Shown: positions 4,209 through 42,700 of the stretch, piece after piece
Position numbering within the stretch: the stretch's first letter is position 1
How the letters are laid out: the number at the start of each line of letters is the position of its first letter
The notes under the pieces: model-generated
Database searches by the model: none
What the model was told of the DNA's origin: nothing
The model's input: only the letters and a program-made list of their open reading frames with translations
Assembly: GCA_963855995.1 (NCBI GenBank)
Contig: OY979724.1
Span: 8,379,032-8,443,031 of the forward strand
DNA from: Muricea muricata
Taxonomy: Eukaryota > Cnidaria > Anthozoa > Malacalcyonacea > Plexauridae
Length of the DNA stretch: 64,000 bases
Reading direction: 5' to 3'
Made by a program: the position numbers and the translations under genes

Positions 4209-5840
4209 TCACACAACAACAGCAGTGTGAAACGATCTTTCTTGAGTCATTTCTGGAAGTTCTTCCCAATTATAACGCTCGAAGTTGAAGCATTCAATCG
4301 ATTTTAGAGCATTGAACTGGTCATCATCTCCTCCCAGTACCACAATGTTGTTTTCAACAACAACTGCAGTACACCCCGATCTCTTACACCTCATTGGTGG
4401 AAGCATATGGCTTCGTTCCGTCTTGACATTGTAAATGATAACTGTATCTAATGCATTGCCATCTTCATCAGCGCCACCAATCACAACAATATTGTCTCCC
4501 CATCTCACAGTTGCCATACCACTGACTTCGTACGGCAGTGTTGCCAGCTGTTTACATTCCTGTGTCATTGTATCAAACAGTACGACACTACTAAGATTGT
4601 CTTCGTAATCCTTAGTTGTACTTCCACCAACGATCAACAAACAGTCGTCAAAGATTTCCATACCGTGACCTAGCCTTGGTTCTGACATTCTGGATAAGGT
4701 CTTCACAGCATACGGAGAAACAAGTAGAACTTCATCAATACGATCAGATACTTTCTCATAACATTCAATGCAACCACCAGAAACATACAAGTGATCGTTA
4801 TACGCCACACTGCTGTGGTAAGCCAACTTAGCAGGTAGTTGAACAGGACAGCCACTCCAGTGTGTGGAGAGATCAGGGTTTGCGTCAATCTTCATTCTAA
4901 TCATGTTCTCGAAAAAGCCATGATCGGTATAGAAACCTCCAGCAGTCACCACGTGATTGTCGTGAACAAATCCAGTCGCTGCAAAACACGCTTCTGGCAT
5001 AGAAGGCAATGGAGCCCACCATTTTTGTGACCAGTTAAAGATCTCTACGGAATTAGTTCCTACGCCTCCAGCAACAAATATTTTGTCCGTATCGCCAGTT
5101 GATGTATTTCTTATTTTTCTTGCGTTGTCTTCGATCCTGTCCTCTATTTTGAGAAGAACATTCTTCATTTGATCAAAACATTCAACTAAAGTTGCCTTCA
5201 ATTCTTTGACCTCATTGCTGACTGTCCCGAACTTTTCTTCCACGTCTGTTTTAATGTCCGCGATTCTTCTTTCAATTTTCGCCTCCATATCCTTTTCACG
5301 TTGTTCCGTGGCAGCTATATTCGTCTCCATTTTGTTCTCTATATTTGCAATTTTCTTCTCCACGTTCGCTAAAGTTATCGTTATTTCTTCGCACGAGTGA
5401 CATTTCAACTTTCGATATTCACATTGTTCGCTTTCATGATGAATAAGATCTCGTTTGTTTACAGTCGCACCACATCCTTCGTTTGTACAAACGACAGGAG
5501 TAAATCCACAGCTATCCTCATGGCGGTCGAGATGTTGTAGTTGTGGGATTTCTTGACAACCTCTGTTGTTGTAAACGCAATGAATTTTTAATTCATTTAT
5601 CACTTCTTTTACCATTCTTTGTGGTTCGGCCAAAGTCTCTACGGTCAGGTCGTCATTACACGCAGGGCATCTTTGTGCATTTCGGAGATGTTGTGTTATA
5701 CAGGAACGGCAGAAACAATGTTGATTTCTCGAACACATGACCGGGTCCTTCAAAACGTTGAAGCAAATCAGACACAGGAAATTTCGATTCACTCTTGTCA
5801 CGAACCTTTCCTCGTCGTAGCCTTGTATGTAAGATGCCAT
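4209..5840 (-). CDS. RING finger, TRAF zinc finger, coiled coil and kelch-repeat protein (putative E3 ubiquitin ligase)
   Basis: Single-exon ORF of 543 aa starting at MASYIQGYDEERF (5840). Order of parts: C3HC4 RING at residues about 23-62 (CLIC ... HCFCRSC ... CPAC); TRAF-type Cys/His zinc fingers about 85-150 (NNRGCQEI, CGFTPVVC, CEYRKLKCHSC); a coiled coil about 160-250 rich in E and K (ANVEKKIANIENKMETN); then kelch-like blades about 260-543 with repeated GG motifs (VAGGVG, VTAGGF, VSGGC, IVGGS, VIGGADEDG, VLGGDDD). RING plus TRAF fingers imply E2 binding and ubiquitin transfer; the beta-propeller would select substrate. The frame stays open 24 codons further upstream, but the MASYIQ start is preferred because the RING follows at normal spacing. 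A truncated paralogue lies just downstream (3252-3510). Substrate unknown. Confidence 0.88.
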   Translation of the reverse strand: MASYIQGYDEERFVTRVNRNFLCLICFNVLKDPVMCSRNQHCFCRSCITQHLRNAQRCPACNDDLTVETLAEPQRMVKEVINELKIHCVYNNRGCQEIPQLQHLDRHEDSCGFTPVVCTNEGCGATVNKRDLIHHESEQCEYRKLKCHSCEEITITLANVEKKIANIENKMETNIAATEQREKDMEAKIERRIADIKTDVEEKFGTVSNEVKELKATLVECFDQMKNVLLKIEDRIEDNARKIRNTSTGDTDKIFVAGGVGTNSVEIFNWSQKWWAPLPSMPEACFAATGFVHDNHVVTAGGFYTDHGFFENMIRMKIDANPDLSTHWSGCPVQLPAKLAYHSSVAYNDHLYVSGGCIECYEKVSDRIDEVLLVSPYAVKTLSRMSEPRLGHGMEIFDDCLLIVGGSTTKDYEDNLSSVVLFDTMTQECKQLATLPYEVSGMATVRWGDNIVVIGGADEDGNALDTVIIYNVKTERSHMLPPMRCKRSGCTAVVVENNIVVLGGDDDQFNALKSIECFNFERYNWEELPEMTQERSFHTAVVV

Positions 5841-5912
5841 ATTTGGTATTTCACGTCGTTTTTGTCGAGGTTCTTGTCTCGTAATAATGAAGAAAATCTG
5901 TATTGACTTCAA

Positions 5913-6650
5913 TCTCCCTGTTGTACAACCATCTGTATATAGATATCGAAATCTTTAACAAAATTATTTGTTTAAAGCAACAGACAAATAACGCTTCCCC
6001 ATATAAAAGCTTTTGAGCGTTTTTTCCAGACAGGAAGTTAAAATCATATCATATTCCATGTGTTGTGATTAAAGGTCATACATAACCTTATCAGAAAAAT
6101 ACTGTCTTTCCATTGGTTACATCTTGTTGACAAGAATGCCTAATTTCAAAATATGGAAATGAGTTCCAAGAAAATAATTGGAATACCAGAAAATTTGAAC
6201 ACCCACTCATATATACGCCACATATTAAATATTTGTAATAAAAAGCTAACAAACACTAACACTTCTCGACATATCTATGCGTCTTATTCATACACCTAAA
6301 GTCTTGGTTTCCAGCACAAAACAGCAGTGCTTTTTGTCTAAAAATTTCGAGTTCATTCCAACTTCTCTCAACTAACCATCATGTTGCATTTGAAAAAATA
6401 CCTCCAGAGTGTCTGTTTTAACGAGAGCATAACAGTGAAAATGTTTATTGGGCACCGCATTATGTGTCCGTAATGCCGTGATAGCGCGAGTCTGTAACAG
6501 CGAGAGCTATTGCAATAGAATTGCACTCTCCTCCACAGAGGCTTTTTTGATCTCTTAAACTAGCACCTCCTCATTAGTCTTACATGACTTTTCTAAAGAT
6601 AATGAGGTTCACGGAGGATTGTGGGAAGTGTAAGTACTAGCTGCCATTAC
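5913..6650. other. No gene seen (5' flank of the RING-kelch gene)
   Basis: AT-rich DNA upstream of the minus-strand RING-kelch gene. Only short random ORFs. No repeat or motif was recognised apart from general low complexity. Confidence 0.5.
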
Positions 6651-6689: not shown

Positions 6690-8081
6690 TTCATTTGTAC
6701 ATGGAAGCGCATAGGAGAAAGCTCAGTCACATTTTGCTGACCTATAAGACAAGAAAGAAGAAACGTTTTGGTATTGAAACATTTATTTAGATTGGTTGTC
6801 AAAATCTGTCGGTCAATGTTGGCTTTACCTTTGTCCAAGTCAAGCCTTGATTGATTAACACAAGCATTTCAAAACAACTATTTTGTGTGTGATTCCACGT
6901 TATATATTGTGTAAAATATAGTCTTCATGACCCCGATTATTATAAGCTCTCGTCTCTCGATTGTTTCACCAGACTAAGATGAAAATAGCTACATGCAAAT
7001 CCAAAAGCGCTTGAACCTCCCAGGCATAAGACACCACCAGCAATGCATAAAACACAACAGACATAAGGCTACATAGGCAGAAAACAGAAACAAAAACAGA
7101 GGCAGAAAGTGTACGCTGCAAAAAGACCGAAGACAAAACAAAATGATGTACATGCAATGCATAAAAGCCAACACCTGCCCACTACAGACATAAGGCCGTA
7201 TGGTAAGGGTCATGGCTAAAGGGGATAAACGAGAGGTAGGTTTTCAAGATGGCGGCTGTTTTTCAAGATTCTTAAAACGAGAACGAATCAACAACCAGAC
7301 ATTTATAGCATTCCTAAAGCTTATCCTAGCCCTAACCCTAAACCTAACCACAATTTAGGAATGCTATAAATGTCTGGTTGTTGATCCGTTCTCGTTTTAA
7401 GAATCTTGAAAAATAGCCGCCATCTTGAAAACCTACCTCTCGTCCATCCCCTTTAGCCATGACCGTATGGTAAGTTGGGAGGGATAGGACGCCCAAACTG
7501 CATACTCGTTCCCAGGTCTTTTAGGCAACGCAGTTAGCCAGCCAATAAGGCCTGGGAACAAGGATGCCTAATCATTTTAATATTAGATAAACAATAAAAC
7601 ATTAGAAGATGCCTAAGCACTTTAAGAACAATAAAGTCGCTTCGTAAAGAATATCATAAGCTATTATTGCTCTCGCGTATTTTGAAATCCCTGGTAAAAC
7701 ACTCCCACTTGTTTATGTAGTGTCAAGTGTCATCCTAGTTAGTACTCTATCAGGTTTAAAGCCACCTCACATGACTTATTATGATTGACATAATATTTAA
7801 ACTCGAGCAGGAGTGCTTTATAAGATATATAGAACGCGAGGCACAGCCGAGTGGTTTATTTCTGATAAAGCACGAATTGCGAGTATTTTAAATGACTTCT
7901 AAAACGATCGATTTAATTTACCCACCTTGTCTGTTTTTAGCGAAAGAATTTTCAAAATCGATGTTGTGTAAGCCTAGAAAATCGAGGCAAAAGTCTTGTG
8001 AAAATCTACGTGTGTTTTATCACATATAAAAACTTCTTCACGGCTATGATTTCCTTTGTGTTTTTCTCATGAATTATTAAT
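6690..8081. repeat. Upstream duplicated block, NLR copy 1
   Basis: Colinear with 29490-30799 upstream of NLR copy 2. Shared landmarks include AAGCTCAGTCACATTTTGCT, the run beginning CCAGGCATAAGACACCACCA, and GAGGCACAGCCGAGTGGTTT. The block lies directly before the 2A exon in both copies, so the duplication carried the probable promoter as well as the gene. Copy 1 is interrupted by the MITE at 7208-7464, which copy 2 lacks. Confidence 0.85.
7208..7464. mobile_element. 257-bp palindromic MITE, 10-bp target duplication
   Basis: The ends begin GGTCATGGCTAAAGGGGAT, with inverted arms of roughly 105 bases that include TTTTCAAGATGGCGGCT. The loop contains telomere-like CCCTAACCCTAAACC. It is flanked by GTATGGTAAG at 7198-7207 and 7465-7474. 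The paralogous position near 30050 reads ATATGGTAAGTTGGGA with no insert, which is an empty site. A 9-10 bp duplication suggests a MuDR-like mobiliser; the superfamily is inferred. Confidence 0.9.
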
Positions 8082-8098: not shown

Positions 8099-11000
8099 GT
8101 ATAAACATACCAATAAATACACCATAAAAGCCTTAAACTATAAAAGCCTTGAACCACAAAAACTATCCGCGCATCTGTCCGGTAAACCTGTTTGACATAT
8201 CCATATTTTCCACCAAACCACACTCCATTACTATAGTATTTTTTTATTGGCAGGTTGATTTGTCTTGTTGCTCTTGTATCAGCAGTTCTTACAAGTTCTG
8301 TATTTGTCTTGGACCTTACTCAATTTGGAGACGTTGAAAAAAATCCTGGTCCAAATTCAGGTAACCGATTTTCTACTTATGGGTAGCTACATTCAGTAAT
8401 TTATATGAAAGATAGCCGTGATCCCATAAGTGAAATTGATACCGGACATGGAATGGGCGGCCACAGGGGAATCAATGGAATTTATAGAAAGGTTAACGGA
8501 AAATGTTTTTTATATATACGAGCTGGCATAACCGACAAACTGGACGCGTTGGATAGAGGATGGAGTTTCCTTATTTTGAGGAAATACTGAACTTTATTTA
8601 AACACGGTAGACTCATCAGGATTTATAGACTACAATGCATAGATACGCACATACAATTACAATATTACGAACTAAAAATCAACAGTGCTACTAAAGCAAA
8701 CATTTATATATTACACCTGATTCTCATGAGTGCCGTGATATATCTATATACAATTAAAAAATTAAAATTATAATTGAAAAAAGTCGATAAGATATAGGAT
8801 AACGTATGGAATTTTCTGTGTCCGCGTTTGCCATGTCCGCGTTTTCCATGCCCACGTTTTCCATGTCCGCGTTTTCCATGTCTGCGTGCCCATGTCCGCG
8901 TTTTCCAGGTTACCTTTTGTAATGTAATGGCAAAGAAACCCTGCGATAGTAAGTGTCCCTTGAGACCACTAATTTTGAATGTAAAGCTGTAAACCTGATG
9001 AAAATAGAGTTAGTTTTGCCGGCACACAAGGAAACTTGTCACGAATAAAAAGTACGCGCGACAAGCGTGCTCGTGTGCGGCGACCTTAAGCAGGGCGCTT
9101 ACTTTCGAGACCCTATAGTATATGTTAAACAGTTTGTAATTATGTCTCATTGAGCGACAGTTGTAAAATATTTTCTAGATCAAAGATACAAGTTCCATCT
9201 CCTTACTCCAGATGATTTTGAAAATGTTGCTGCCATTGTACTGAAGCATGAATATGGAAGACCATTTCATGTGCACAAGGCAGGACGGGATGGGGGTGTT
9301 GATGGTCAGGCATCGAATATTGGTCTGTTGACAAATGAGAAGATAATCGTTCAGGTAAAACACACCAGCAACGAATTGGAAACATTAAAAGACGGCACAC
9401 GGAAAAATGTATTTGAAATGGAAAAACCAAAAGTGGAGAAACTGGTCAAGGAAAACGGGCTGGAAACATATGTTATTTTTACAAATTTTCAATTACCTGC
9501 TGGTCAAGCTCAGCATCTTGAGGAATGTTTTACAGAAGCTGGCGCAAAAAAGGTCGAGGTTTTTGGATATGAAACAGTGTGTAATTTGCTGACTGGGTCA
9601 CTAATTTTAGAAGCAACATTAATCGCTCGTTATCCAGTTATCGACCCTAGGCCTATCAAAACCAACATCAATATCTATGATCAGCGCACCATCCTACCTT
9701 CAAACGAAGAACGACCATCGCCACCTAAACGCTTAAAGTTAGAACCAGACATAAAAGGTACAGTTCTTAATCTTCAAAAGTTTTTGTTCTTAAATTATGC
9801 AACATTGAACAAAAACTTTCTTCAAAAGTTTTTCTTTAACGTTGCAGAATTTCTAAAAGGTAAATGTGTCTTAACTTGAGTGGAAATCATTTCAAAATTC
9901 AAGCCGGGAACAGTTGGGAGAATTTTGTCAATTATACAAGTCCCCGGGCAGGTAGCGAAGTATCGAACATAAAAGCGCACGAATAACCAAACATAAATAA
10001 GAAATAAATAATAAAAACATAACTACACATAAACGACGCTGCTCTTGTGGTCAGAGCATTGAAACGGAATTGCAAAGGTAAAGAAGGTTCAATTCCTGCC
10101 GGAGTAAAAATGGATTCGACGTCAAAGAACTCGGAGGAATTCTACTGCCAAATCAAAAACTCTTATTTGAAATTGTTAAAAGTGTATAATTTTGCAGCAA
10201 TTTTCTCTTGCTTATGCTCTTAGCGAAAATAATTCGCGTTTTTGCTGTGCGCCTGATTGTATTCTTTTTGATCATTTTGAATTCATTATTATTATAGCGA
10301 TTGTGATTTAAGTTAGCTCGATCCAATTGATCCACTGTAATATATATTTGAAAGGCTTGCCCTCCATTGTTTCTAAATGTAGGGTTTAAGGACCAGCCAT
10401 AAAGTAAAAGGGGGCTGGGCAGCGAAAATAGGAGTGGGTCACTATTTTTGGGCACGGTTCTCAAAGGGGAACAGAAAAGTTAGGTACAAAAGGTTAGGTA
10501 CAGGGTGGGTCATGTAAAATTATGCAGAAATTTATGCATATCCAGCCAAGCCATCTCTAACTTTATGATCGGTCCCTTTTTTTGGTTGAATACTTACTAA
10601 TAGATAATACCTGATTTGAACAATATATACTACATAATGATGGGCTTGGACTCTGATTTAGACTTGGATATAAGACTTGAACTTGAGAATGTCGGGCTTT
10701 CAAATTCAAGAGACTTGCACTTGTAAATACTGGAATTTTTCTCAACTGTTTCTGCCTTGAATTTCGACATGTGTATGATCTCCACTTGAATTCAGACACA
10801 TTTACCCTTTAGAAGTTTTTGTTCCAGTTTGGCTCGACCAACAATGTACGAAAGCTGAGGAGAGAATTTTATCTTTTAACTCCGGACTTCGTACTGTTTG
10901 TACTTAAATTAAAAACTGAAGTATATTCGTTGTGCATACGGCCATAAGTAAGGAATGACAGTGTTCATTGAAAATTTAAGGTTTATGATCTGTTGGGCGA

Positions 11001-14000
11001 GTAATTACGTTTTGCTTATAGGGTATGGGAAATGAAAGACGCAAATAACGCGTTTTTCACGATTCTCTAATGTTTGTTTTGATACAACGGACAAACTTGT
11101 GAAAGTTTTACTTTGTGATGACAAAACAAATAGAATAGAAAATACATAACATGAAATTATTTTGCTTCCTTTCAAGAAGGGCCCCCTCACGTTTTATTGC
11201 AGATGAAGATTTCTACGCTGCCACTGGGCCCTAGGGTTAATAACAAATCCTGGAAAGTTACTAAAACTGTGTAGACGATTGCAATGCCAAGTCGCTTTAA
11301 TCCAGCCTTACTGCTCACCCCTATGGAGAGTATGTAAGACTCTAAAAGATAAACTTCAAAAATTTAAAAACCGGGCAGCGAAAATAATCGCCAGGGTTAG
11401 CTACGACACTAGATGCCTTTTCCGTTCTTAAGTTGGAATGAATTAGAGGAGCAGTGGCGTATAAGTAAATTACTATTGATATATAAAATTCTGAATGATT
11501 ATACGGGACCTAACCTAAAAGAATCTCTAACAAAGAAAAACATCTGGCAAACTAATTATGCATGATCTTAAGAATAGGCAAACTGACTTAGCTCTCCTAA
11601 AACCAAAAATGGAGTTTCTCAAAAAAAGTTTTAATTTTGGCGGGGCAAAATTGTGGAACAGTCTTCCACCAAATGCCAAATTGGCAAGTTCTGTCCACTC
11701 ATTTATAAATATCATACTGGTCACACCAGATTAATGTATTATAGTAATAGGTAGGTATTTTGTAAATAATTATATGTTAAGACGCCCTCCACGGAAACCA
11801 GCATTTGCTGATGGGGCTAGCGTCATTAAATAAAGTTTTACATACATACATACATACATCTAACATGCTCGAAAGAAACTAGCTAGAACACTTTTCATTT
11901 ATCGTACAGCATGAGTAAATACCAACCTAAAATAACGAGGCTGTATGATTGGCCTTTTGAAACAAAAGTCACCATTGTGTGTGATTTTTTCTTGAGAAAA
12001 ACAATTTCTACAGTTTTTGTCTTTCAATGTTATAACCAACCACTCACAAGACAAGTTAGTATGGGTTGTGTAGACCCTACACTATGCTTCTCTGCCAAGA
12101 TCCTTTATAGCATTTTTGGTAAATCAAATGACGGGTTTTTATGCCGAAGGAAGCAACTTAGCACAAAGTTAAGCTTCCATGTTTCCAATAACATCATATG
12201 CATGTATAGTGCAAGTCAGAATTGCATTCCAAGCTACAAGAACTTTTAAAATAAATCCCATCTGAACAGCTTTATAACACAAATGAAACTTTCCTGAGGA
12301 GAGAGTAAAAGTGACTTGATAAACAAATGAGTAGAGAATTCAAATTCTTTGTATACACAAAGTAGATTGATTTTCTAATTGAATACAAGCTAATACATAT
12401 GCGTCACACAATGGCATAGATGTCTTTCTACAGTAAACACAAAAAGTGATGTAGATTAATTGCTTTTAGAATCAGGGACCGCGCAGAGTTCGGGACTGGG
12501 AAGGCCACTCACTTTTTATAGCAGATGAAGGTTTCTGTGCTGTTACTAGGCCGCAGGATAACAAATCCTGCAAAGTTACTAAAACTGCAGATGAATGCAA
12601 TGTCCAAATCGCAGGAAATGGCATTTCCGTTCTAATTTTCAAAATTTCTCGGAGACCACCCTCCCTGAAAAACCGTAGACTGATTACGTATTTGGAGTTA
12701 GACCTTAGTCTCCTCACATCAAATTACGCTCCGTGGGTCCTGAGAATGTACGCAAACGATTTTAGTGTGGAATTTTAATTTGTTATAACTTACAATTGGT
12801 ATGCGCTTGCGCTAAAGTTGGCTGCTAAATAACAAATTTAAGGCGATTTTAATGTCCCAACTGTGATTTCCACCATAAAGTTTATACTATCTTCGGCTTG
12901 ATCATGATAGACTTTCTTTCAACATGGCGACCAGCATGCGCGAAACAACATGTGAGACACAAAAACTTCAAAGGCTCCGTGTTTATGTGCACGCTGATCT
13001 CTGTATAGTACTGAAAGTACACGACGAATTGGGCGACCTAAGGTAGCAGGAAGCAATTAGCGATTACGTATTATACTGTATTTTCCCATCAAGCATAGCA
13101 TATCGAAGCTGCTTCCGAAATAATATGTTATTGTATATGTTATTATTATTTATATAATAATACGTGTTCATTTTGCATTTTCATTGGTCGCGAGCTGTGT
13201 GTTATTAAAGTACACACGCACGGATGACGTCAGCTGATGGCGTGATCTAATTTAGCTAATTTATTTCGCGGGTCTTCGCATGATTTTTGTCAACTTTATC
13301 ATAATATAAAACAAATAGATTTCATTTTTTTGTGCTTCTGCACTGTAATAGATCACAGATGACGCCATAGCGTGTGAAGAACAAAAAGTCACGCACTCGA
13401 CTGCGTCTCATGCGTACTTTTTTGTTCTTCACACACTATGACGTCATCTGTGATCTATTACAGTACAGACGCACGCAAAAATGAAATCTATTTGTTAAAT
13501 ACTGTATGTTAAAACTATGTAATTGCTCATTACAGTTTTTGAACACGAGTTAAACTTGTTTATAATTTTGCTTACATCAATTTCTTACAGAACTCGAAAA
13601 CGTTTTGTGTGAAGAGTACAAGCGTAGAGCAGAAAATTTTAAACCGTTGCCCTGGATTGACAAAATGCAGTTCAACCTGGAAAACCTTTACACAAAACTG
13701 TCTGTTGTAAAAAGAAAAAAATCTGGTTGGAAAAAAACAAAGCAAATTGTTGAACTTCCTGACATATTCGATACAGATAAGGAGTCAAGATCAAACCCAA
13801 AAATTATCCTAATCGAGGGGAGTCCGGGGACAGGTAAAACAACGCTAAGCTTGAAACTTGCGTATGACTGGGCCACAGGTAAAATGCCAAACAAGTTTCC
13901 AGAAGTAGAACTAATTCTGTTGATCAAGTGCCGGGATATGGAAGCTAACATTCAGGAATCAGCCAAGACGCAGCTTTTGCCTTGGGATAACGATCAATTG

Positions 14001-15884
14001 TGGAATGTCTTAGACTCTTTTGTTCACTCGGGTAAGGTAATGTTAATCATTGATGGGGTCGATGAGATTCCAAAAAGTGCGGAAAGTCATGTTGTGAACT
14101 TGTTAAACAGAAAAGTTCTGCGAAATTGTTATGTGGTCGTCACATCTAGGCAAGAGAAAGGAATGGAAGTGCGGAAATATTGCGATAAACTATTAGAAAT
14201 CGACGGCTATTCTGATGAAAGTAGAAACAGTTTCATTGATAAATACTTCACAAGTGACATTGATCTTGCTCAAAAACTGCAGGAAAAGATACGAACAAGC
14301 ACTGAGAACAATCTCCAATCGCTGGCCACAAACCCGTTGAATGCATTGCTGTTGTGTGTTGTTTTTGAAGATAATAAAGGCGATCTACCTACTACGGTAA
14401 CTGAACTATATGAAAATATTGTAGAGTGTATTTGGAAACGCTATTGTAAAAGGAAAAGACCGGAAGAAAAAGCTATCCCGTTCGAAATGGCTATGCAGAC
14501 CTTGGGTAAATTGGCACACGAATGCCTTATTAATCGCGATACGTTGTATTTCAGCGAAAACATGTTGAAAAACGAGGACGAAAAACCGTGTACTAACATC
14601 GGTTTTTTGTATAAGGACGATATTAGTACAAGAATATTAAAGCCGCAAATTACGTACTGGTTTCTTCACAAAACGTTTCAAGAATATTTTGCAGCGTATA
14701 ATTGTGCATATATTGAAAAAGAAGTCGACATGTCAAAGTTATCTTATTACACGCGTAAGGACGGTGCGAAATTCATTCAAGTTTTAAAGTTCCTGTCTTC
14801 TATGTTGCAGAAAGAAAGGGTTGAGCATCATAAAAAAGTTATAGCACAACTTGGATCATGCATTTCTCAAAATGATGAGTGTAGAGGCAGCGCAGGATTA
14901 AATATCTTGTGCCAAGTCCTTTCTGAGAATGAACTCAACAGAGATTTAGCTGGCACTTTTAAACCTTTCATTTCGGAAGACTTAGATTTGGAGATAAAGC
15001 CAGACAACCAATATTCTATTATGCCTCGCATTTTAAATCTTCTTGCCACAGGAAGTGAAGATGAAGAAACATTAAAATTAGACATGTTACAGTTCGACGA
15101 TTTTCTTGATGGCACAGAGTGGTTGAGACTGATTTGCGAGGCGCTAATGAAAAACCTTGTTGTCGATCAGATGAGATTGTGGCATTGTAAATTAGACGAA
15201 ACTTTTCTGCAACAAATGTTGACTAAGAACCCGATTCTACGGATATTAAATATTTCAGGGAATGTGACTTATAAAGGACTGAGTATATTGGCAAAGGGTT
15301 TATGTAAAAACTCTAGTCTAAAAATACTATATCTTATGAATATTTGTTTGGGATTGCACGATAAGCCCTCTTCGGAATTTACAGGCATGGTTGAAATGTT
15401 TCAAACTAATGTTACATTAAAAACACTCTGGCTGGATTACAACCCACTTGGTTCTGACGGAGTGACTTGGATTGCCGAGGCACTAGGATCGAACCAAGGG
15501 CTGGAGGAACTTAGTCTAAGGAATACCGAATGTGATGACGAGGGAGCAGCAGCACTTGCAAAAATGTTGCGCATGAATAAGACGCTCAAGCGGCTTTGTC
15601 TATGTAACAGACACAACAAACTCATCAGAAGAAACAGTATTGGTGACAAGGGAGCAACTGCTCTTGCTGATGTACTGAAGGAATACAATTCTTCATTAAG
15701 AGAACTTCATCTTTGCCATAATACAAACATCATAAATACAGGATTAAGAAAACTTACAGAAACAGTGCAGAAAAATAAGAGACTGACATTATATATCGAC
15801 CTGCCTGAGCAGATCAGCAAGACACTTGATAAAGAAACAATGGAAAGAATACAACCACCGTCAAGCTGTCCGTCTTGCCGTTAA
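8082..15884 (+). CDS. NLR copy 1: 2A leader - Mrr-like nuclease - NACHT - LRR
   Basis: Gene model: possible start exon 8082-8098 (uncertain), 2A exon 8254-8360, Mrr exon 9179-9757, NACHT-LRR exon 13591-15884. All joins after the 2A exon are phase 1 (NS+D, K+E), so they splice into one frame of 993 aa plus a short leader. The order is a hydrophobic signal-like segment ending in a 2A motif, a PD-(D/E)xK nuclease of the Mrr type, a basic NLS-like peptide, a NACHT ATPase and C-terminal LRRs. NLRs are ligand-gated oligomerising ATPases; here the effector position is held by a nuclease domain rather than CARD, PYD or DEATH. The 2A motif would let ribosomes release the leader or read through, giving two possible cellular destinations. 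A second full copy lies 22 kb downstream. No transcript evidence is available, so exon linkage is inferred from phase and from the repeated order. Confidence 0.75.
8254..8360 (+). CDS. 2A-like leader exon, NLR copy 1
   Basis: The 107-nt exon sits between a pyrimidine-rich acceptor (TTTTTTTATTGGCAG) and donor GTAACC. It encodes 35 residues: a hydrophobic run LICLVALVSAVLTSSVFVLD followed by LTQFGDVEKNPGPNS. The last part matches the 2A consensus D-(V/I)-E-x-N-P-G-P, at which ribosomes skip the final Gly-Pro bond. N-terminal 2A sequences that double as signal peptides are known from sea-urchin NLRs. A stop codon lies just upstream in frame, so translation must enter by splicing. 2A motifs also occur in animal non-LTR retrotransposons, but here the exon is followed in phase by the nuclease exon in both gene copies. 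Confidence 0.85.
8361..9178. other. Intron of NLR copy 1 with minisatellite
   Basis: Intron between the 2A and nuclease exons. It includes the minisatellite at 8818-8910. Short ORFs here are not conserved with copy 2. It ends in the acceptor GTAAAATATTTTCTAG. Confidence 0.6.
8818..8910. repeat. Minisatellite, unit about 15 bp
   Basis: About six imperfect tandem units of the type CCATGTCCGCGTTTT, varying as CCATGCCCACGTTTT and CCATGTCTGCGTG. Intronic; absent from the equivalent intron of NLR copy 2. Confidence 0.9.
9179..9757 (+). CDS. Mrr-type PD-(D/E)xK nuclease exon, NLR copy 1
   Basis: 579 nt, phase 1 to phase 1, about 193 residues. It opens DQRYKFHLLTPDDFENVAAI, like the helix before the Mrr catalytic core (acidic residue in the DDFE segment). 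The core GRDGGVDGQ, then about 18 residues to KIIVQVKH, matches the Mrr pattern G-D-x-G-x-D ... Q-x-K, in which the usual (D/E)xK motif is QxK. The metal-binding Asp and the Lys are both present. A Rossmann-like remainder follows (ETYVIFTNFQL, VEVFGYETV). The exon ends SPPKRLKLEPDIK, a basic NLS-like peptide. Splicing at AAAAG/GTACAG continues in phase into the NACHT exon. The function inferred is DNA cleavage or DNA binding in the nucleus after NLR activation; the substrate is unknown. Confidence 0.8.
10034..10107 (+). repeat. tRNA-like SINE head (1 of 4)
   Basis: Box-A-like TGTGGTCAGAGCATTG and box B GGTTCAATTCC, spaced about 40 bases apart, resemble a tRNA-derived Pol III promoter. Related copies are at 36838-36905, 38566-38630 and 47179-47249, all inside NLR-derived introns, so the spread may be by segmental duplication rather than retrotransposition. 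Confidence 0.45.
11299..11865 (+). mobile_element. LINE 3' fragment (non-LTR retrotransposon)
   Basis: Broken translations show typical LINE C-terminal segments: LIQPYCSPLWRVC, KNRAAKIIARVSYDTR, and FNFGGAKLWNSLPPNAK. Frames contain several stops. The 3' end has AATAAAG and a CATA tandem tail (TACATACATACATAC). The surrounding NLR-intron sequence CCTGGAAAGTTACTAAAACT recurs at about 12567 without the LINE, so the element interrupts an older repeat. Dead copy. Confidence 0.85.
13311..13495. repeat. Foldback element near the NACHT exon of copy 1
   Basis: Arms of about 75 bases (ACAAATAGATTTCATTTTT ... its complement at 13478-13495; core GATCACAGATGACG / CGTCATCTGTGATC). Copy 2 lacks it: after GAAATAATATGTTAT it goes almost directly to AATTGCTCATTACAG. 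The element entered copy 1 after the duplication, within 100 bases of the NACHT exon. Confidence 0.85.
13591..15884 (+). CDS. NACHT-LRR exon, NLR copy 1
   Basis: 2294 nt single exon, entered in phase 1 after TTTCTTACAG (ELENVLCEEYKRR). NACHT features: Walker A GSPGTGKTTLSLKLAYDWA; Walker B VMLIIDGVDEIP; sensor-type VVVTSRQEKGM; helical region LATNPLNALLLCVVFED and the WFLHKTFQEYFAAY segment common to NACHT proteins. The C-terminal part holds LRRs of the ribonuclease-inhibitor type, for example LKTLWLDYNPLGSDGV, LEELSLRNTECDDEGAAAL and LRELHLCHNTNIINTGL. The protein ends SSCPSCR. A polyadenylation signal AATAAA is at 16025-16030. All ATPase motifs are intact, so the domain should bind and hydrolyse ATP and assemble. 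The NACHT core is almost identical to copy 2; the start of the LRR region differs most. Confidence 0.93.
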
Positions 15885-30799: not shown

Positions 30800-33700
30800 A
30801 TGTTTTTAAAACATCCATATATGTAAACATAGCAATAAATACGCCATAAAAGCCTTGAACCATAAAAGCTTTGAACTACAAAAACTGTTCATAGACATTT
30901 GACATATCCATATTTTCCACCAAACCATACTTCATTACTATAGTATATAATTTTTATTGGCAGGTTGATTTGTCTTGTTGCTCTCATATCAGCAGTTCTT
31001 ACAAGTTCTGTATTTGTCTTGGACCTTACTCAATTTGGAGATGTTGAAAAAAATCCTGGTCCAAATTCAGGTAACTGATTTTCGGCTACAAGCATTCATG
31101 TACATTCAGTAATTTATGTGAAAACTAGCCCAAAACGAAATGAATTTACTTTACTTTACTTTTAGCTTTAATAGGATAGTATACTTTTAACTAACATAAA
31201 CATCCTATAAAAGTGTTTATATTAATACGGTAGAATTGTAAAAAATACATAAATTATTTTCACATTCACGAACATTATTTAAAAATTTAATAACAACATT
31301 TAACATAAATATTAAAAACATTCTCAACGGCTAAAAATAAAATAAATTTCAAAGATTTTTTATTTTTGTGTAAATCAACGAGCATCTTTATCACATATTT
31401 GCAAAATTTATGAATAATTAACGAGGTTTGTACCCAGTTAAACTTTCCAGATTACATCACATGCATACCCCTGTAAGTCCCATATAAATTAATGTAAATC
31501 AGTTACAAACACTCGTGAAAAATATAACCACGAATGTGCATGGTGGTCTTAAAATTTGGGGGGAGGATTATGGGGAGGGGATTTATATTACAGGGGGACG
31601 AGCTAACATTTTGAAAAAGCTGCGCTTTATACCCAGCATTAATAAATATCAGGGACGTAGACTGAATTGAGCGTTGTTGTCATATCGGTGTCAACGACGA
31701 TCTAAAAATGGCTTGAATCTCCATCTATGGAGGTGGCCACGACAATTCCATGTCGTTCTTACGTCGTCTTTGGCGTAGCATCGTTTTTTCTGAACCTTTC
31801 TATCAAGAAAAGAGCTACGCCCCTGGTAAATATAATATGTTACACTACTCTAAATAACTGTTCCTTTTATGTATTATTTTTATTATTGTTTACAAGCAAG
31901 AAGATTTGCAAAAAACACAGATTTTAGTCATCACTGGTAACAAACATAATGTAAACGTAAAATGTTTGCACGTAAATGTATATTTTTAGCAGAACGTGGT
32001 GCTCTATTTTTGAGTCGTTGTTAAGTATTTAATGCTCATGCAGTCTAATTTTGACGTGGACATTTGCATCACGCTTGCGAGCATCAATCTATTTTAGCGA
32101 GTTATGATTTCCACAGATATTCCATAGAGCTGGAGGGACAAAAAATAATTTGGGGGACATTTCCCCCCTTGCCTCCTCGCCGCCACTGAAGCACGAGCTT
32201 TTGCAACTGATTTACATACAACTCATCTGTATAAATTCATTTCACAAGTTGTTTGCAATACTCGCAGCCCGCAGCCGTATTGTATTGAAGACACAATCTC
32301 TCGCCGTTCAACGCGGCCGCTCGTATATATAAACATTACAAAGACTCCTACCAGGTCATAATTTCCTTCGTGTTCTCCTCGTTATTAATAAGACAGAAAC
32401 TGATAAGACAGGAACTTTAAACATTATATAAATAAGAAGTTTAAGAAAATTATGAATCTGCTGAAAATCTCATTAGTCCGGCAGCTAGAGACCAATATAC
32501 TTACCACATCGAGGTGCAATTCCATTTTGATATTATCTCGTTCCTTTGAGGCTAGTAAGTAAATCCCTGCATGTTGGTCACATTGAAATTTCTTGCAGAC
32601 TCTTCCCAAAAAAATTTTAAAATGCTAAAATCATGCAAATATCCTGGGCAATAGTACAAAAGTATGCTAAATTCAAAGGCTCATAACTCACTAAGAACTG
32701 GAAAAAAGTCTCATTCTGATGATGCAAGTTTTTTTTCCAAAATTGGTTTTGAAATATTATCTTTTATTACAGTAATGCAGTTTTATTGTAATATTAACGA
32801 AAAACGTGTTCCAAAGCGGCAAACACGCAGAAATGTACTTACTAAGCTAAAACCAAAATGGAATTGCCCCTGAGTATGGTAAGGAAACATGCATGTTTGT
32901 ACCTGTAGCTGCCGGAATACATGTATAATTCTTCCTAAGGACTTGGTGGAAGACAGTATAGATTAGATATACAGCAATTTACCACATACCGTGTGAATAA
33001 CCGTGTGAGTCTCAAGAGTAAGCGGCCCTCGAAAGTAAGCGCCATTTTCGACACTTCCTGGAGAATCTTGAAAGTAAGCGCCCCCCCCCCCCACTCTCTT
33101 GTGTAATGTAATGGAAAAGAAACCATCTAAACCCTATGCATACGATATTTGCTCTAGCACGCGTTTAAACTTGGCCGATGCCGAAAACAACTCAAAAGCG
33201 CCTTTCGAAAGTAAGCGCTCCCTCGAAAGTTATAAGTGTCCCTTGAGACCACTAATTACGAAAGAAAGCAGGGCGCTTACTGTCGACCCTCAATGCTGTA
33301 TGGTAAACAGTTTGTAATTATGTCTGATTAAGCGACAGTTGTAAAATATTTTCTAGACCAAAGATACAAGTTCCATCTCCTTACTCCAGATGATTTTGAA
33401 AATCTTGCTGCCATTGTGCTGAAGCATGAATATGGAAGACCATTTCATGTGTACAAGGCAGGACGGGATGAGGGTATTGATGGTCAGGCATCGAATATTG
33501 GTGTGTCGATAAATGAAAAGATAATCGTTCAGGTAAAACACACGAGCAACGAATCAGAAACGTTAAAAGACGGCACACGGAAAAACGTATTTGAAAAGGA
33601 AAAATCAAAGGTGGAAAAACTAGTTAAGGAGAACGGGCTGGAAACATATGTTATTGTTACAAATTATCAACTACCTAGAGGTCAGGCTCAGAAACTTGAG

Positions 33701-36700
33701 AAATGCTTCAGAGAAGATGCAGGTGCAAAAAACGTTGACGTTTTTGGATATGAAACACTGTGTAATTCGCTGAATGGCTCACCAATTTTGGCAGGAGAAT
33801 TAATCGCTCGTTATCCAGTTATCAACCCTGCGTCCATCGTGAGCACTACTATCTATAGTCAGTGCACCTTTGTAGCTACAGACGAATACGGAGCGTCACC
33901 ATCTAAACGCCCAAAAGTAGACATAGAAGGTACAGTTCTTTATCTGAAAAAGTTTTTGAAACCAAATTAAAATATAATTTTCTGGAAACACCACATAAAT
34001 TTATTATCGCAAAGCTTTCGAACCGTAAGCTCGAAAATTCGAACCAAAATTATATTTTAATTTGATATTCACGATGCAAACATACAAGGAATTTATTTTT
34101 AAAATCAATTATAATTTTGTGGCACTTCACTGGAGTTGGCATAATTTCTAAAGGGTGAATGTGCCTTAATTCGAGTGGAATTAAATCATGTCGAAATTTG
34201 AGCCGCGGGAAAATTAAAGTTAAGAAAAATTTGTCAACTTTACAGGTCATGCGGAAGGTGTCGTACTTAAAAGAACAAGAAAGATCAAACGTAAAGCAGG
34301 CATAGAAGGTACATGTACATGCAGTTCTTTATCAGCTAATATTTTTTAATCAATTATGATTTAGTGGCACTTCACTGGCAACCTCGTACCCAGGCGCTTT
34401 CTTTGGGGAAGGAAAGACCCTGGTCGGGGCTGATCACGTGAATCCCCAGATTTTGGGGATAAATTATAAATTCAGCTAGGGAGGGGTGGTTGAGGAGTGG
34501 GCTTGTTGTGTTTGAAAAATTATAACTTGCGTGTTAAACTTCAGAACGATAAAATTTAATTTTGCAACAAGAGATCGTGAAATAATTCGTATTTATTAAG
34601 ATACGGCTTCCTGTATATTATCGAGTATTGGATTACATTGTCAAACGATCGGATTTCAGTGGACAACCAGCGCGAGAAAAGCATGCTCAACACAATCTTC
34701 AAGTGTTAATTCTAAGTCGACCGATCAAACGAACAATATGGATGTGACTGATGTCCGGTTTGAAATACATCCTATCCGACACGTAAGTTAATCTAACGCC
34801 GGATTTACCTTGAGTTATGCAGAGATGTGGAATTGCTATGAAATAACGAGACCCAGCGATCCCGCGCAAGTACTGTGACTGTATGTTCTAAACATGCTCT
34901 CGACTGTTACAACCTGTCAAAGTATATGCCGTTTTGGCAGTGGTGAAACTCTATGATAAAGATTTATGTCGAAGTATAGCTTCCTTTTATCAAACGTATT
35001 GTAACTCATGATACGATGTAAACAAAGCCAAAGATTCTTCCGTGCGTGCGGTATGACTTGGACATTTTAATTATAGTATTGTATAATATGCGTATAATTA
35101 TATACAAATCACTTTATTATATTTATTATATACACCAGCCACATAAATATTATTAAGAGCTTTCATTGCTATTAACTTTGTAGCTTGATTTATCTAGAGT
35201 ATTTTCAAAGCAATTGCATGCTGCTGTGAGAATCAATATATTAACTGTAGACTTCACTACATGATTACTGCATAGAACGTAATACACATGCACATTATTT
35301 TAGCGACTAACTATGGCGCACTAGACAAACAGTCGATCAACAGAAACTATAAAAAATCCCTGTACAATGTAATGCTATGTGTGCGAGAGTTTCTGCGTTT
35401 ATATAGAGTTTATGTGATGAATATATGCATACATACTATTTCTGACAAAATGTAGAGACACTTTGGTACAGAAACCTTAGAGATACAGTATAATAGAAAA
35501 ATACTTCGCTAAACTTTATCTGCTATCATTCTGTTAAAAAAAAAGCGAGAGTAAATCACCATATAGGTATATTCCAATTGGATTTGGGGGATACTGGGCA
35601 GTATTTTGCCCTCAAAAGCATGCGGTAGTTTACTTGTTTTACATGTATAATTTTGTAGCATAGATTCTCTAACAATTTTTTGCACCAAATATTGTCTTAA
35701 AATCTTCCTGTAGTACATTGTGTTTAATATAAATGATTATTTCAAAATAAAATCAATAACATGTAAACAGTCTACAGGCAGTTTTAGAATCAATTGATTG
35801 AATGGACATTCATTGTTTTATTTGGCTGTCAGTCCAAATCAACGCTTGCCGAAACCTGCTAAAACCCTAAACTGCTAAACATACATCACTCTTGGCTCCT
35901 ATATGAGAAATTAACAAGTAAATCAATGCCGTTTCCCAATAACAATATATACCGTTTCCAAATAACAACAATTTAGTACTGAGATAGTGCATACTGTAAA
36001 TATAAGCCCCGAGGCGGCCGAGAGAACATAATAACAGTTACAAAGCATACGCACAATCACACGTTTTTAGTACTCATTTCCTGACTTGCTACTTACAATA
36101 GAATCTGTTTACCATATTTTTATGATTTAAAAGCAAACAGAAATCAAACTTAGCAAGTATTTTGAAGTATACATGATTCATAAAGTTGGCTGTACACAAC
36201 ACTCACTGCCTACACCCCTTAGGCAATCAAAATTTTTCACATCACGTGACCAGCCCCGACCAGGGTCTTTCCTTCCCCGAAGAAAGAGCCTGGGTACGAG
36301 GTTGCTTCACTGGATGTTGCATAATTTTTGAAGGGTAAATGTCTCTTAATTCGCGTGGAAATCATGTCGAAATTTAAGTAAATAAAAGTACGTGAATAAT
36401 CACACACATGGATAATGGCCGTTTTTATACTAGAGACGGATAATGCGTCTGGACGCATAATGCGTCCTTCTATATTGTTCGTCTAGTATAAAGACGGGAC
36501 GGATAATCCGACGAACTATCAGGCAAACCACTACAATAATTTTTTTCCGGCTTTTTGCATCACGGTTTTAGAATAGCCAGATTATTCGTCTGTGTGCCGT
36601 CTTTACACACACAGACGCATAATACGTTTAGACGAACTATCGTCGATAGTGCGTCTGTTCAGACGAATAACCGAACATAGTTCGTCCAGACGCATAATGC

Positions 36701-39700: not shown

Positions 39701-42700
39701 AAGGTACTCGTGCGAAACAGAGTAAAGAAAAAGGCTTTCGCCTCAGTAGCAAGCCAACAGAGTCAGAGGATACACAAAGGGAAAAGGAGCACAAAGATGT
39801 CAAGGTAAAGAACGTCTTTGGTTTTGTTGAATACGTTTTAAATGATGGCTTTTAATGTGTTTGAATCCGCACGTATTGTAAGCCTTGTTTACGTTTTTAT
39901 TCAGAATATAAGTACCCAAATACCTGTAGTATATTTTTATATAGCTCATTTCTGATTTTATTGCAACATCGGTATAATATTTTACAATTGTATGAAACGT
40001 GTGGGTTGAGTCATCCTGATTATCTGAGTAAAAATATAGTTCCTAGTCTATGTAGTTTGAGCCCACAACTATTAAATACAATTTTTTTACTATAATTGTA
40101 GGATTTTATTGCAACATTGGACGAGGCCATGGTAAGAAAACTTGCTATAAGAAGCCTACGGAGAGGGATTGGTAGCATGGACTACATAGAAACATTACTG
40201 ATAACGGAGGATGACCTTGATGAGGATGAAAATTTTGGTGAGTTCAGTAACACAGCAACTGATCAAGCAACTGGTTTAGCACTGGCAGGTAGTCCTTCCA
40301 ACACACAGAACCCAGATGATGTAGAGGATTCAGCATCAGGTGCTATTCCAGATTGGTGCGTTTGTGGTAAATGTCATCCAATGCCACAAGAAGTCGAGAA
40401 TAAGTGTTGCAAATTAAAAAAGTGCATAACACTTTCTTCTCGATTTGCAAAATTGTGCCTGGACCCTGATGTGGTAGAGCTATGCATAAAAAGTACAGGG
40501 GATATTAGAAATGACAGAGAAGACAACAGCAGCAGGGCTTTTCGAAAAGCAGCCTATAGACAATTTATACTTGCCCGCTATGGCCGTCTTGGTAAGGGAA
40601 ACAGACGAGTCTGCCCTTCATGTGTAGTAACGAAAATTAGGAAACAGTGGCCATCCATTACTGGAGTTTACATGGGGTATAGAGAACATTAGTGCTAACA
40701 CTCAGACCAACAGTAAACTATGTATTTGTAAACATATATTTTCATAATGTGGCCTACACCAAAATGCACTAGCTAGTGGTATATGCACTTAAAAGAATGG
40801 TTCATCAAATATTTTATTTCATGGCAAATTTAAATTTCATTCATTTTCTCATGGTGCCACCTGTTTCACGTATTAATTTTTCAGCGAATAATATCACATG
40901 CAATTAAGATTATGTCAATTAATACTTATTGAATGTGCCTGAGGGAAACAGTATGTTTTCTAGACCCGAGAAACGGCAAGCAGAAAAAAGCAGCGGTTGA
41001 GGTTGCGTAAAAAAGGCTGTTTCCTGAGGTACACACTCAATAACTATTATGTTATTTACTAAGTGTACCACAATTTATTATAAAATGTATATTTAAATGA
41101 AACATTTCTTTCCAAAACAAAATCTTGGCTCTGTTAAGTTGTTATTTACTGGTGAATATAAAGGATGGCCATCACTCAGATGCATTGCTAAGGGACAATC
41201 AAATTTCTTGACTATCACATGATAAAAAACTAGATTCATATTAGTAATCTGACACTGCAGATAACAATGAAAAATTCGTTGTTATAAGGGGGATTTGAAC
41301 TCACATCTACAAATTTTTTGTTGTTCTCGGCAGTGTCAGATTAATATGAAGCTAGTTTTTCATCTCTCCGAGGGTGGTTGTGAAATAGAATTGAATCGTG
41401 TGATATGCTTTTGACTGCCAAGAAGCAAGAAAAGTTGAACTTTGACACTTAGAATATGATATTTGATTAAAAGTTGTGATATTTAATTTGAATTTGCCCT
41501 GATACGAAACTTAATTTTTGTGTACATTCATTCATTCAATTGCTATACTAATAATCATAGAAGCCCCAAAAATTTCAATTTAACAGTCAAAATATTTACA
41601 TTAGATACAAATATGAAACTAAATTTGTGTGTACATGCAATTGTATTCAATTGTTATAACAATAAATCTTAAAAGCCCAAAAAATTTCAATTCAACAATC
41701 AAAATATTTACACTAGATATGGATATAAAACTAAAATTTTTTGTTCATTCTATTAATTGTTGTACTAATAAATTTTAGAAGCCCAAAAAAAAATTTGTAA
41801 GTAAAATATTTACATTTATAGATATACGCTAGACTTGCCAACATTTTGAGTGACCTGGGGGGATTTAAAGCTCTATAATATAGCTTTGCATTTTGAGGCA
41901 AGCTATAAAGGGTCATACGTTGCATCCTTGAGCTATGTTGATTGCTAACAAATATGCTTGGATTCAACAAAAAATGAACTTTTAGAAAATATTAACATAT
42001 GCAATTGAAATGCTAAATAGAAATTGGGAGTTTAAAATTTTCAAAAATTTTGCAGGAGATAAAATCAAGCCACAAATGTCAGACTCTCTCATGCAAATTG
42101 AGCAAGTTGGCATGCCTGGTACACTGACACTGCATTTTGAAATGGCAACAATTACAGTCACCAGTGTTCATTGTTTTGTAAATCTGCTTCTTCGTGCAAT
42201 GATTTCCTTAGTTGGTGGTGGTGGAACATGTGCAGTTGTTGGTGAGATAAGGGCAGGGTCACTTGTGTTCAGATCAACATGCTTTGTAACTGGATCTGTG
42301 TCCATAGCTCTCCTCTTCATCATGTGGGAAATAAGAACTGGGATGTATTCATATCCTTTCTCTTGTTTCACTTTTTTAATGTCCCACTGCCGGGTTCTTG
42401 GATTGTATTTGCGCGTTATAATTTCGTCACCAGACTTAGATTTCTTCTGTGGGAGGTTTACATGGAAATTCCAGTCTATAGCTGTAAGTTGCCGTCTTGC
42501 TTTGTAAGTCTGATAACTAAAATTTAATTAAAGACATCACGTTCTGGGCTTTATTGAAGTTTAAAATATCTTTTTACTTGCCCAAAACTTACTTAAAAGG
42601 CACTCTCTTAGGAGTGTACACCAAACCAAGACTGTTTGCGCACTCGATACTTCCAGTATGCCTACATCAAATCAAAAGCAAGAAAATGCCTATATCAACT

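Follow-up and report, generated by a model that had tools for sequence, protein, structure and literature searches.

The 64,000-nucleotide stretch of DNA analysed here (the window) appears to hold one member of an array of tandem genes, coding for an animal NLR with an Mrr-type PD-(D/E)xK nuclease as its effector, a DNase that would be activated on oligomerising; we give this reading a probability of roughly three in four. Its domains were identified at the sequence level, and we infer from them that the protein assembles and cuts DNA. Animal NLRs are generally described as signalling via adaptor domains; bacterial STAND receptors often bear their own killing enzyme. If the reading is true, sensors of this kind could answer a threat by cutting DNA themselves, and a multi-copy animal NLR array headed by a conserved, bacterial-type nuclease would demonstrate that a one-protein sensor-executioner plan also works in animals.

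Gene structure of the two window copies

The earlier note had proposed three exons between 8254 and 15884, and all three were found there on the + strand with consensus splice sites. The leader exon (8254-8360; in phase 2, out phase 1; analysed by splice reading, hydropathy and 2A pattern) is bordered by the acceptor ttggcag before GTTG and the donor gtaacc after TTCAG. The nuclease exon (9179-9757; symmetric phase 1-1, 193 codons; analysed by Pfam, PADLOC, alignment, AlphaFold2 (AF2) model, fold search and splice sites) is bordered by ttttctag before ATCAA and gtacag after AAAAG. The NACHT-LRR exon, which includes the stop codon (13591-15884; analysed by Pfam, PDB relatives, Walker residues and AF2 model), begins with AACTC after the acceptor tttcttacag. 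The introns between them occupy 8361-9178 and 9758-13590, and the second of these contains retroelement-like debris near 11200-11860, as judged by eye. The spliced frame is open for 992 codons with a single stop at its end, the nuclease and NACHT exons are both entered in phase 1, and the joins that had been claimed to match in phase (NS+D and K+E) were borne out by splice reading of the raw sequence. From the sequence, we are nearly sure that the three exons form one gene.

Since the leader exon is entered in phase 2 and contains no in-frame ATG, a start exon is missing from this gene model. We found no candidate for an ATG first exon with a phase-2 donor common to the two window copies, and none for an ATG first exon common to all five array units searched over 6 kb upstream. 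The sequence MTVW at 7459-7469, upstream of copy 1, was rejected as a first exon: it runs across the boundary of an inverted-repeat element, and the other copies lack it. That element (window 7208-7464, upstream of the copy 1 leader) is MITE-like, with arms of 111 nt that are 96% complementary and 35 nt apart, and is absent at the corresponding place of copy 2.

Copy 2 has the same exon order on the + strand: a leader exon (30964-31070; 34 of 35 residues identical to copy 1), a nuclease exon (33357-33929; 75% identical, with acceptor CTAG, donor GAAG/GTACAG and intact D, Q and K) and a NACHT-LRR exon with its stop codon (53812-56117; 81% identical). By blastn the two copies are duplicates, upstream and intron stretches included. 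Inside the large intron of copy 2 lies an open frame (40102-40689) with a match to the P2X7 intracellular domain (P2RX7_C, E 3.4e-26), and a 339-codon open frame on the - strand of a copy 2 intron (43413-44429) is without a Pfam match. Adjoining the array, an open frame on the - strand (4209-5954) has RING finger, TRAF-type zinc finger and kelch matches.

Tandem array and order of exons

The leader, nuclease and NACHT exons could in principle derive from different genes, or the nuclease exon could be a dead insertion that splicing usually leaves out; introns are long, reaching 20 kb in copy 2, no first exon was found, and a leader spliced straight to NACHT would also stay in phase. Evidence on this question came from the animal's own genome assembly (453 Mb, 74 contigs, with the window on contig C9), which was searched with the NACHT, nuclease and leader exons; exon counts from these searches are lower bounds. 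The array extends over C9:8.387-9.330 Mb (0.93 Mb), with all found exons on the + strand, and comprises at least 17 leaders, at least 14 nuclease exons and at least 17 NACHT exons without reported stops (one in two pieces), together with one more in three pieces and several fragments. The NACHT exon in three pieces (C9:9084546-9086837) has in-frame stops in two of them, and its leader and nuclease exon are present; for the NACHT exon at 8799725 no leader was found. Outside the array the searches returned one further leader (contig C5) and one fragment matching the copy 1 NACHT exon (contig C2), and no nuclease exon was found in the own genome outside the C9 array.

After every leader (17/17) a NACHT exon comes before the next leader, and each of the 14 nuclease exons found has a leader before it and a NACHT exon as the next one after it, in the same orientation. 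Leader-to-NACHT spans make up 21% of the array; none of 100,000 random placements matched the 14/14 order, and p would be about 4e-10 if placements were independent, which they are not in this test, as the units are tandem duplicates. For 12 of the 14 nuclease exons (C9:8899015 and 9135464 were left out) the sequence was examined: a TAG acceptor is present in all 12 and an in-phase (phase-1) G/GTACAG donor in 11. Reading back from each exon to the preceding stop shows no in-frame Met, so these 12 exons cannot start as genes of their own in that frame. The exon at 9139509 is frame-broken.

Ten leader units carry one nuclease exon, two carry two and five carry none (12/17 with nuclease). The units with two (C9:8458452-8475722 and C9:9132602-9146271) have them in tandem between leader and NACHT. 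At C9:8458452-8475722 both keep their splice sites in phase, so that alternative or double use is possible; in the C9:9132602-9146271 unit the downstream nuclease copy is frame-broken. The nuclease-less units have their leaders at C9 positions 8487049, 8824682, 8933835, 9173139 and 9307340. In the first of these (unit 4) no nuclease remnant was found; by eye, a LINE-like pair of open frames lies between its leader and NACHT, and flanking intron stretches shared with other units remain.

The five nuclease-less units, and a Met ahead of the exon border in 28 of 54 database frames, can be counted in favour of different genes or a dead insertion. In those 28 database relatives the open frame starts at the upstream Met, so some paralogues elsewhere could start as genes of their own. 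Against this stand the order of all 14 exons, the in-phase splice sites on both sides of 11 exons among the 12 examined with no own start in any, the failure to find a nuclease exon elsewhere in the genome, and purifying selection on the nuclease core (below). Given order, phase and missing start codon in the own genome, the separate-gene reading was rejected as very unlikely as far as sequence allows; we regard the rival as a whole as highly improbable and take the three exons to be parts of one gene. Ahead of the exon border, many database relatives (P0003, P0005 and others) share a stretch, MYKQVANYDCFTYF, that is intron in the window copies and could be a conserved intron or an alternative start.

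Elsewhere in the genome the NACHT family has at least 96 matches, in several clusters that include C11:13.53-13.69 Mb and C14:10.29-10.44 Mb, and many of these matches stand in uninterrupted open frames that are 900-1500 codons long. The own genome also has 34 Death and 11 CARD matches, all of them outside the array. Its NLR, Death and CARD domains mark it as the genome of an animal.

Nuclease domain

The product of 9179-9757 had been claimed to be an Mrr-type PD-(D/E)xK nuclease, and the claim survived each check: both window copies match Mrr_cat (PF04471) at 25.1-25.8 bits against a Pfam cut-off of 21, the D-Q-K residues are kept, and AlphaFold2 predicts the fold. The domain spans approximately residues 1-155, with catalytic D42, Q59 and K61, and is followed by a variable tail with KRLK. 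Its best PADLOC match was PDC-S73 (E 6e-15 and 3e-17, residues 3-140), below which ranked short-Argonaute-associated (Aga) TIR and REase-TIR models and the Mrr end of ZorD. In the AlphaFold2 model the elements follow the PD-(D/E)xK order and include the alpha-beta-beta-beta-alpha-beta core, and the region bearing D42 is poorly modelled. In the fold search of the PDB, the N-terminal nuclease of the phage-sensing Avs4 was the top match. When the PDB was searched by sequence, neither the nuclease itself nor its alignment nor the bacterial alignment retrieved a nuclease, and the full-length protein search retrieved none either; phage records and IMG/VR gave no relative, and no NCBIfam family scored above its cut-off.

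Across 54 protein-database relatives and the two window copies, D-Q-K is intact in 51 of the 52 rows that have all three catalytic columns, the sole exception being P0053, which has an unrelated start. Three of the four gapped rows begin past D42, and the fourth (P0004) has lost D42. In a 12-row alignment that includes five bacterial relatives, F14, E15, G36, D38, G40, D42, I57, Q59 and K61 are invariant. All dN/dS figures reported here are pairwise and refer to the two window copies only: for the nuclease the value is 0.53 overall (bootstrap range 0.33-0.91), 0.36 for the core (first 150 aligned codons) and 1.17 for the tail. By these figures the nuclease core is under purifying selection.

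Some eukaryotic PD-(D/E)xK-like folds are inactive scaffolds, and the domain might likewise be a non-cutting module on the NLR, either a DNA/RNA binding and dimerising platform or a ligand sensor. The poorly modelled D42 part and the loss of D42 in P0004 agree with such a module, which we nevertheless consider unlikely: D, Q and K are kept together in nearly every row and are invariant alongside the bacterial Mrr-STAND proteins, and the core is under purifying selection. A little less probable again is that the nuclease cuts, with RNA as its target or with a target confined to foreign DNA such as modified or viral DNA, as a restriction-like enzyme and not a cell-death effector. Pfam recognised no further base-reading domain in these exons, and the nucleases of Avs1-4 are described as cutting phage and host genomes alike (PMC12931631), both of which speak against this narrower role. 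We retain a DNase-type effector as the preferred reading.

The tail carries an SPPKRLK-like basic motif (window 9640-9757) that is kept in 35 of 48 tails though the remaining tail evolves freely. The pattern KR.[KR] occurs in these 35 tails against 0.6 expected from shuffling each tail, a comparison in which descent is uncontrolled. The motif resembles what we take to be a nuclear localisation signal of the Myc kind, and a possible nuclear aim would bring the nuclease to DNA.

NACHT-LRR exon

Pfam scored the last exon at 67.1 bits for NACHT (cut-off 26.7) and 27.9 bits for LRR_6 (cut-off 23.4). Copy 1 has Walker A GSPGTGKTT and Walker B LIIDGVDE, followed by a helical linker and C-terminal LRRs; across 22 NACHT rows GSPGxGKTT and D154, G155, D157 and E158 are invariant, and in the AF2 model strands and helices alternate at 463-734. 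Solved relatives in the PDB included NOD2-like entries, NLRP3, NLRC4 and LRR proteins such as ribonuclease inhibitor; the entry 5irl, titled uncharacterized, we presume to be NOD2. nSTAND3, the ATPase of the PDC-S73 proteins, reached 24 bits on copy 1, below its cut-off of 27.2, whereas NACHT lies far above its own, and the PADLOC match to PDC-S73 is confined to the nuclease and a 28-residue P-loop stretch. On these matches, the ATPase and LRR are animal NLR-type. The protein database contained 413 NACHT matches; compared with 120 of these, at least 38 of the 54 nuclease frames lie on contigs of equal length to that of a NACHT match, an indication of linkage that the array map in the own genome has replaced.

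Between the window copies the dN/dS of this exon is 0.75 overall, with 0.55 for NACHT, 0.61 for the linker and 1.11 for the LRR, the last of which by itself cannot tell positive selection from relaxation. Taken with the nuclease values, these figures suggest that the executioner and the engine are conserved and the sensor evolves freely.

2A leader

The copy 1 leader consists of a signal-like hydrophobic stretch, LICLVALVSAVLTSSVFVL (mean hydropathy 2.65 across 19 residues), followed by the canonical 2A motif GDVEKNPGP, which lies at 8330-8352 in copy 1 and at 31040-31062 in copy 2. Within the window the 2A codon pattern is present only at the two leaders, and 100 shuffles produced no instance of it. 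Both window leaders have the D(V/I)ExNPGP sequence behind a signal-like stretch that characterises sea urchin 2A-NLRs, and it is in those sea urchin leaders that translational recoding and dual targeting were tested (PMC4981915).

Genome-wide, 18 leader copies were found, 17 of them in the array. The lone leader exon on C5 (17201335-17201441) is 89% identical with its NPGP frame intact; its nearest listed NACHT match is more than 2 Mb distant, and a 710-codon open frame lies downstream.

Bacterial relatives and origin

A tblastn search of 72,556 plasmid records with the copy 2 nuclease gave 12 matches, annotated as restriction endonuclease (six), TIR-domain protein (four) and AAA ATPase (one), with one lacking an annotated gene; the best, from Rhizobium gallicum, is 30% identical over query residues 2-139 (E 2e-6). 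A domain scan covered five of these matches, namely four restriction endonucleases and the AAA ATPase. The five proteins are 756-762 aa long; Pfam finds nSTAND3 in every one and Mrr_cat above cut-off in four, and their matches to PDC-S73 have E values from 2e-135 to 6e-148. Among bacteria, the nuclease is matched best by candidate defence proteins, likewise built as Mrr followed by a STAND ATPase.

A scan of prokaryotes (one genome per species, 84,980 species, with a mostly bacterial query) returned 54 loci, of which 51 have a P-loop-like motif past the nuclease, near residues 194-207, and 46 of these 51 are 747-808 aa long; as the query was built mostly from Mrr-STAND proteins, other nuclease partners were not probed by the scan. 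A tree of 71 rows gathers the 14 animal rows in a single group (100/100 support) that includes none of the 57 bacterial rows; the group's branch measures 2.08 from a midpoint root, a placement given with long-branch warnings. These results suggest either a single ancient acquisition from bacterial Mrr-STAND nucleases or descent shared with them. The nuclease would then have been recombined onto an animal NACHT-LRR by way of a phase-symmetric exon.

Proposed mechanism

The mRNA, as read from the exons, would join the signal-like 2A leader, nuclease, NACHT and LRR. In some or most rounds of translation the ribosome would skip at NPG/P, so that the leader comes off and a receptor beginning with Pro stays in the cytosol or nucleus; when skipping fails, the leader could route the protein to the secretory pathway (both by analogy with the sea urchin leaders, PMC4981915). 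The fast-evolving LRRs would sense a ligand, upon which the NACHT ATPase, by homology, would oligomerise in the manner of NLRP3, NLRC4 or Avs. Clustering of the N-terminal nucleases may then lead to cutting of invader and/or host DNA, with defence or cell death as the output; the fold, the catalytic residues and the precedent of Avs1-4 suggest this step. The nuclease exon has the phase of a symmetric cassette and may be used by skipping. Skipped, or absent as in five array members, it leaves an in-frame 2A-NLR without nuclease, and these natural nuclease-plus and nuclease-minus sister genes are a ready test system.

We tentatively put forward a wider proposal, which we consider plausible but short of probable: that an animal lineage took up a bacterial anti-phage-type Mrr module, inserted it in the form of a phase-symmetric exon behind a dual-targeting 2A leader and ahead of its own NACHT-LRR, and amplified the product into a linked array. 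This would have yielded NLRs that cut DNA directly by the Avs mechanism, in which the 2A leader determines the destination of the nuclease and exon skipping its presence. The proposal bears on the entry of bacterial defence modules into animal immunity and on why NLRs have 2A leaders, as a leader controlling the location of a DNase would have an obvious use.

Comparison with known systems

The earlier note had set this gene against animal NLRs with CARD, PYD, DEATH or DZIP-like ends. That the nuclease end differs from these stands; the list itself was too narrow, as PNP_UDP ends occur in coral NLRs, and with a Death domain in sponge (cited in PMC4986451), and HEPN domains are joined to NACHT in cnidarians and cephalochordates (PMC3710099). 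Transmembrane NLRs are described in anemones (PMC5094078), and Mrr-like REase effectors in bacterial NTPase conflict systems (PMC7159879). Two papers on fungal NLRs (PMC4986451, PMC12258605) mention neither a nuclease nor Mrr in their main text. No animal Mrr-NACHT or PD-(D/E)xK-NACHT protein was found in the open literature searched, which leaves aside key cnidarian surveys, among them the coral NLR survey of Hamada 2013, as well as Kibby 2023 and Gao 2022.

NOD2, NLRP3 and NLRC4 have NACHT and LRR in common with copy 1, in which the nuclease replaces CARD, PYD or Death; searches for Death and CARD found no Death-fold effector of the kind typical of animal NLRs at its N-terminal end, where the nuclease exon stands instead. 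The DZIP3 and CXorf38 families are alike in joining a predicted nuclease, HEPN, to an animal NACHT (PMC3710099), but HEPN is described there as a predicted RNase fold, whereas copy 1 has a PD-(D/E)xK fold that is expected to cut DNA. Sea urchin NLRs likewise have an N-terminal hydrophobic 2A sequence, D(V/I)ExNPGP, on NACHT-LRR (Roulston et al. 2016, PMC4981915); in the accessible part of that paper they are described with a DEATH domain and no nuclease domain. Unlike in the sea urchin proteins, the 2A sequence here is an exon of its own with the nuclease exon next to it.

The closest sequence relatives of the nuclease in the collections searched are the PDC-S73 proteins, a PADLOC candidate group of bacterial Mrr_cat-nSTAND3 proteins of approximately 760 aa (hhalign 99.2%), whose name appears in no paper of the literature searched. 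They share with the animal gene, as read from its exon order and phases, the order of nuclease and then STAND ATPase. They differ in that their ATPase is nSTAND3 and that of the animal gene NACHT, and no LRR is listed in them; the animal nucleases form a separate long-branch group relative to them.

The likeness to bacterial Avs/STAND proteins that had been proposed for this gene holds: among PDB entries, Avs4 is the one closest to the predicted fold of the nuclease, whose catalytic residues are intact. Like the animal gene product, Avs4 and the other Avs (AVAST) proteins have an N-terminal PD-(D/E)xK nuclease, a STAND ATPase and a C-terminal sensor, and Avs1-4 cleave phage and host genomes with their nucleases (PMC12931631). 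Unlike Avs, the animal gene has introns, a NACHT of the NLRP3/NOD2 kind, an LRR sensor and a 2A leader, and the identity of its nuclease to Avs4 is only about 15%. By prediction, it is an animal NLR with a DNase-type effector that would work like Avs but is not itself an Avs.
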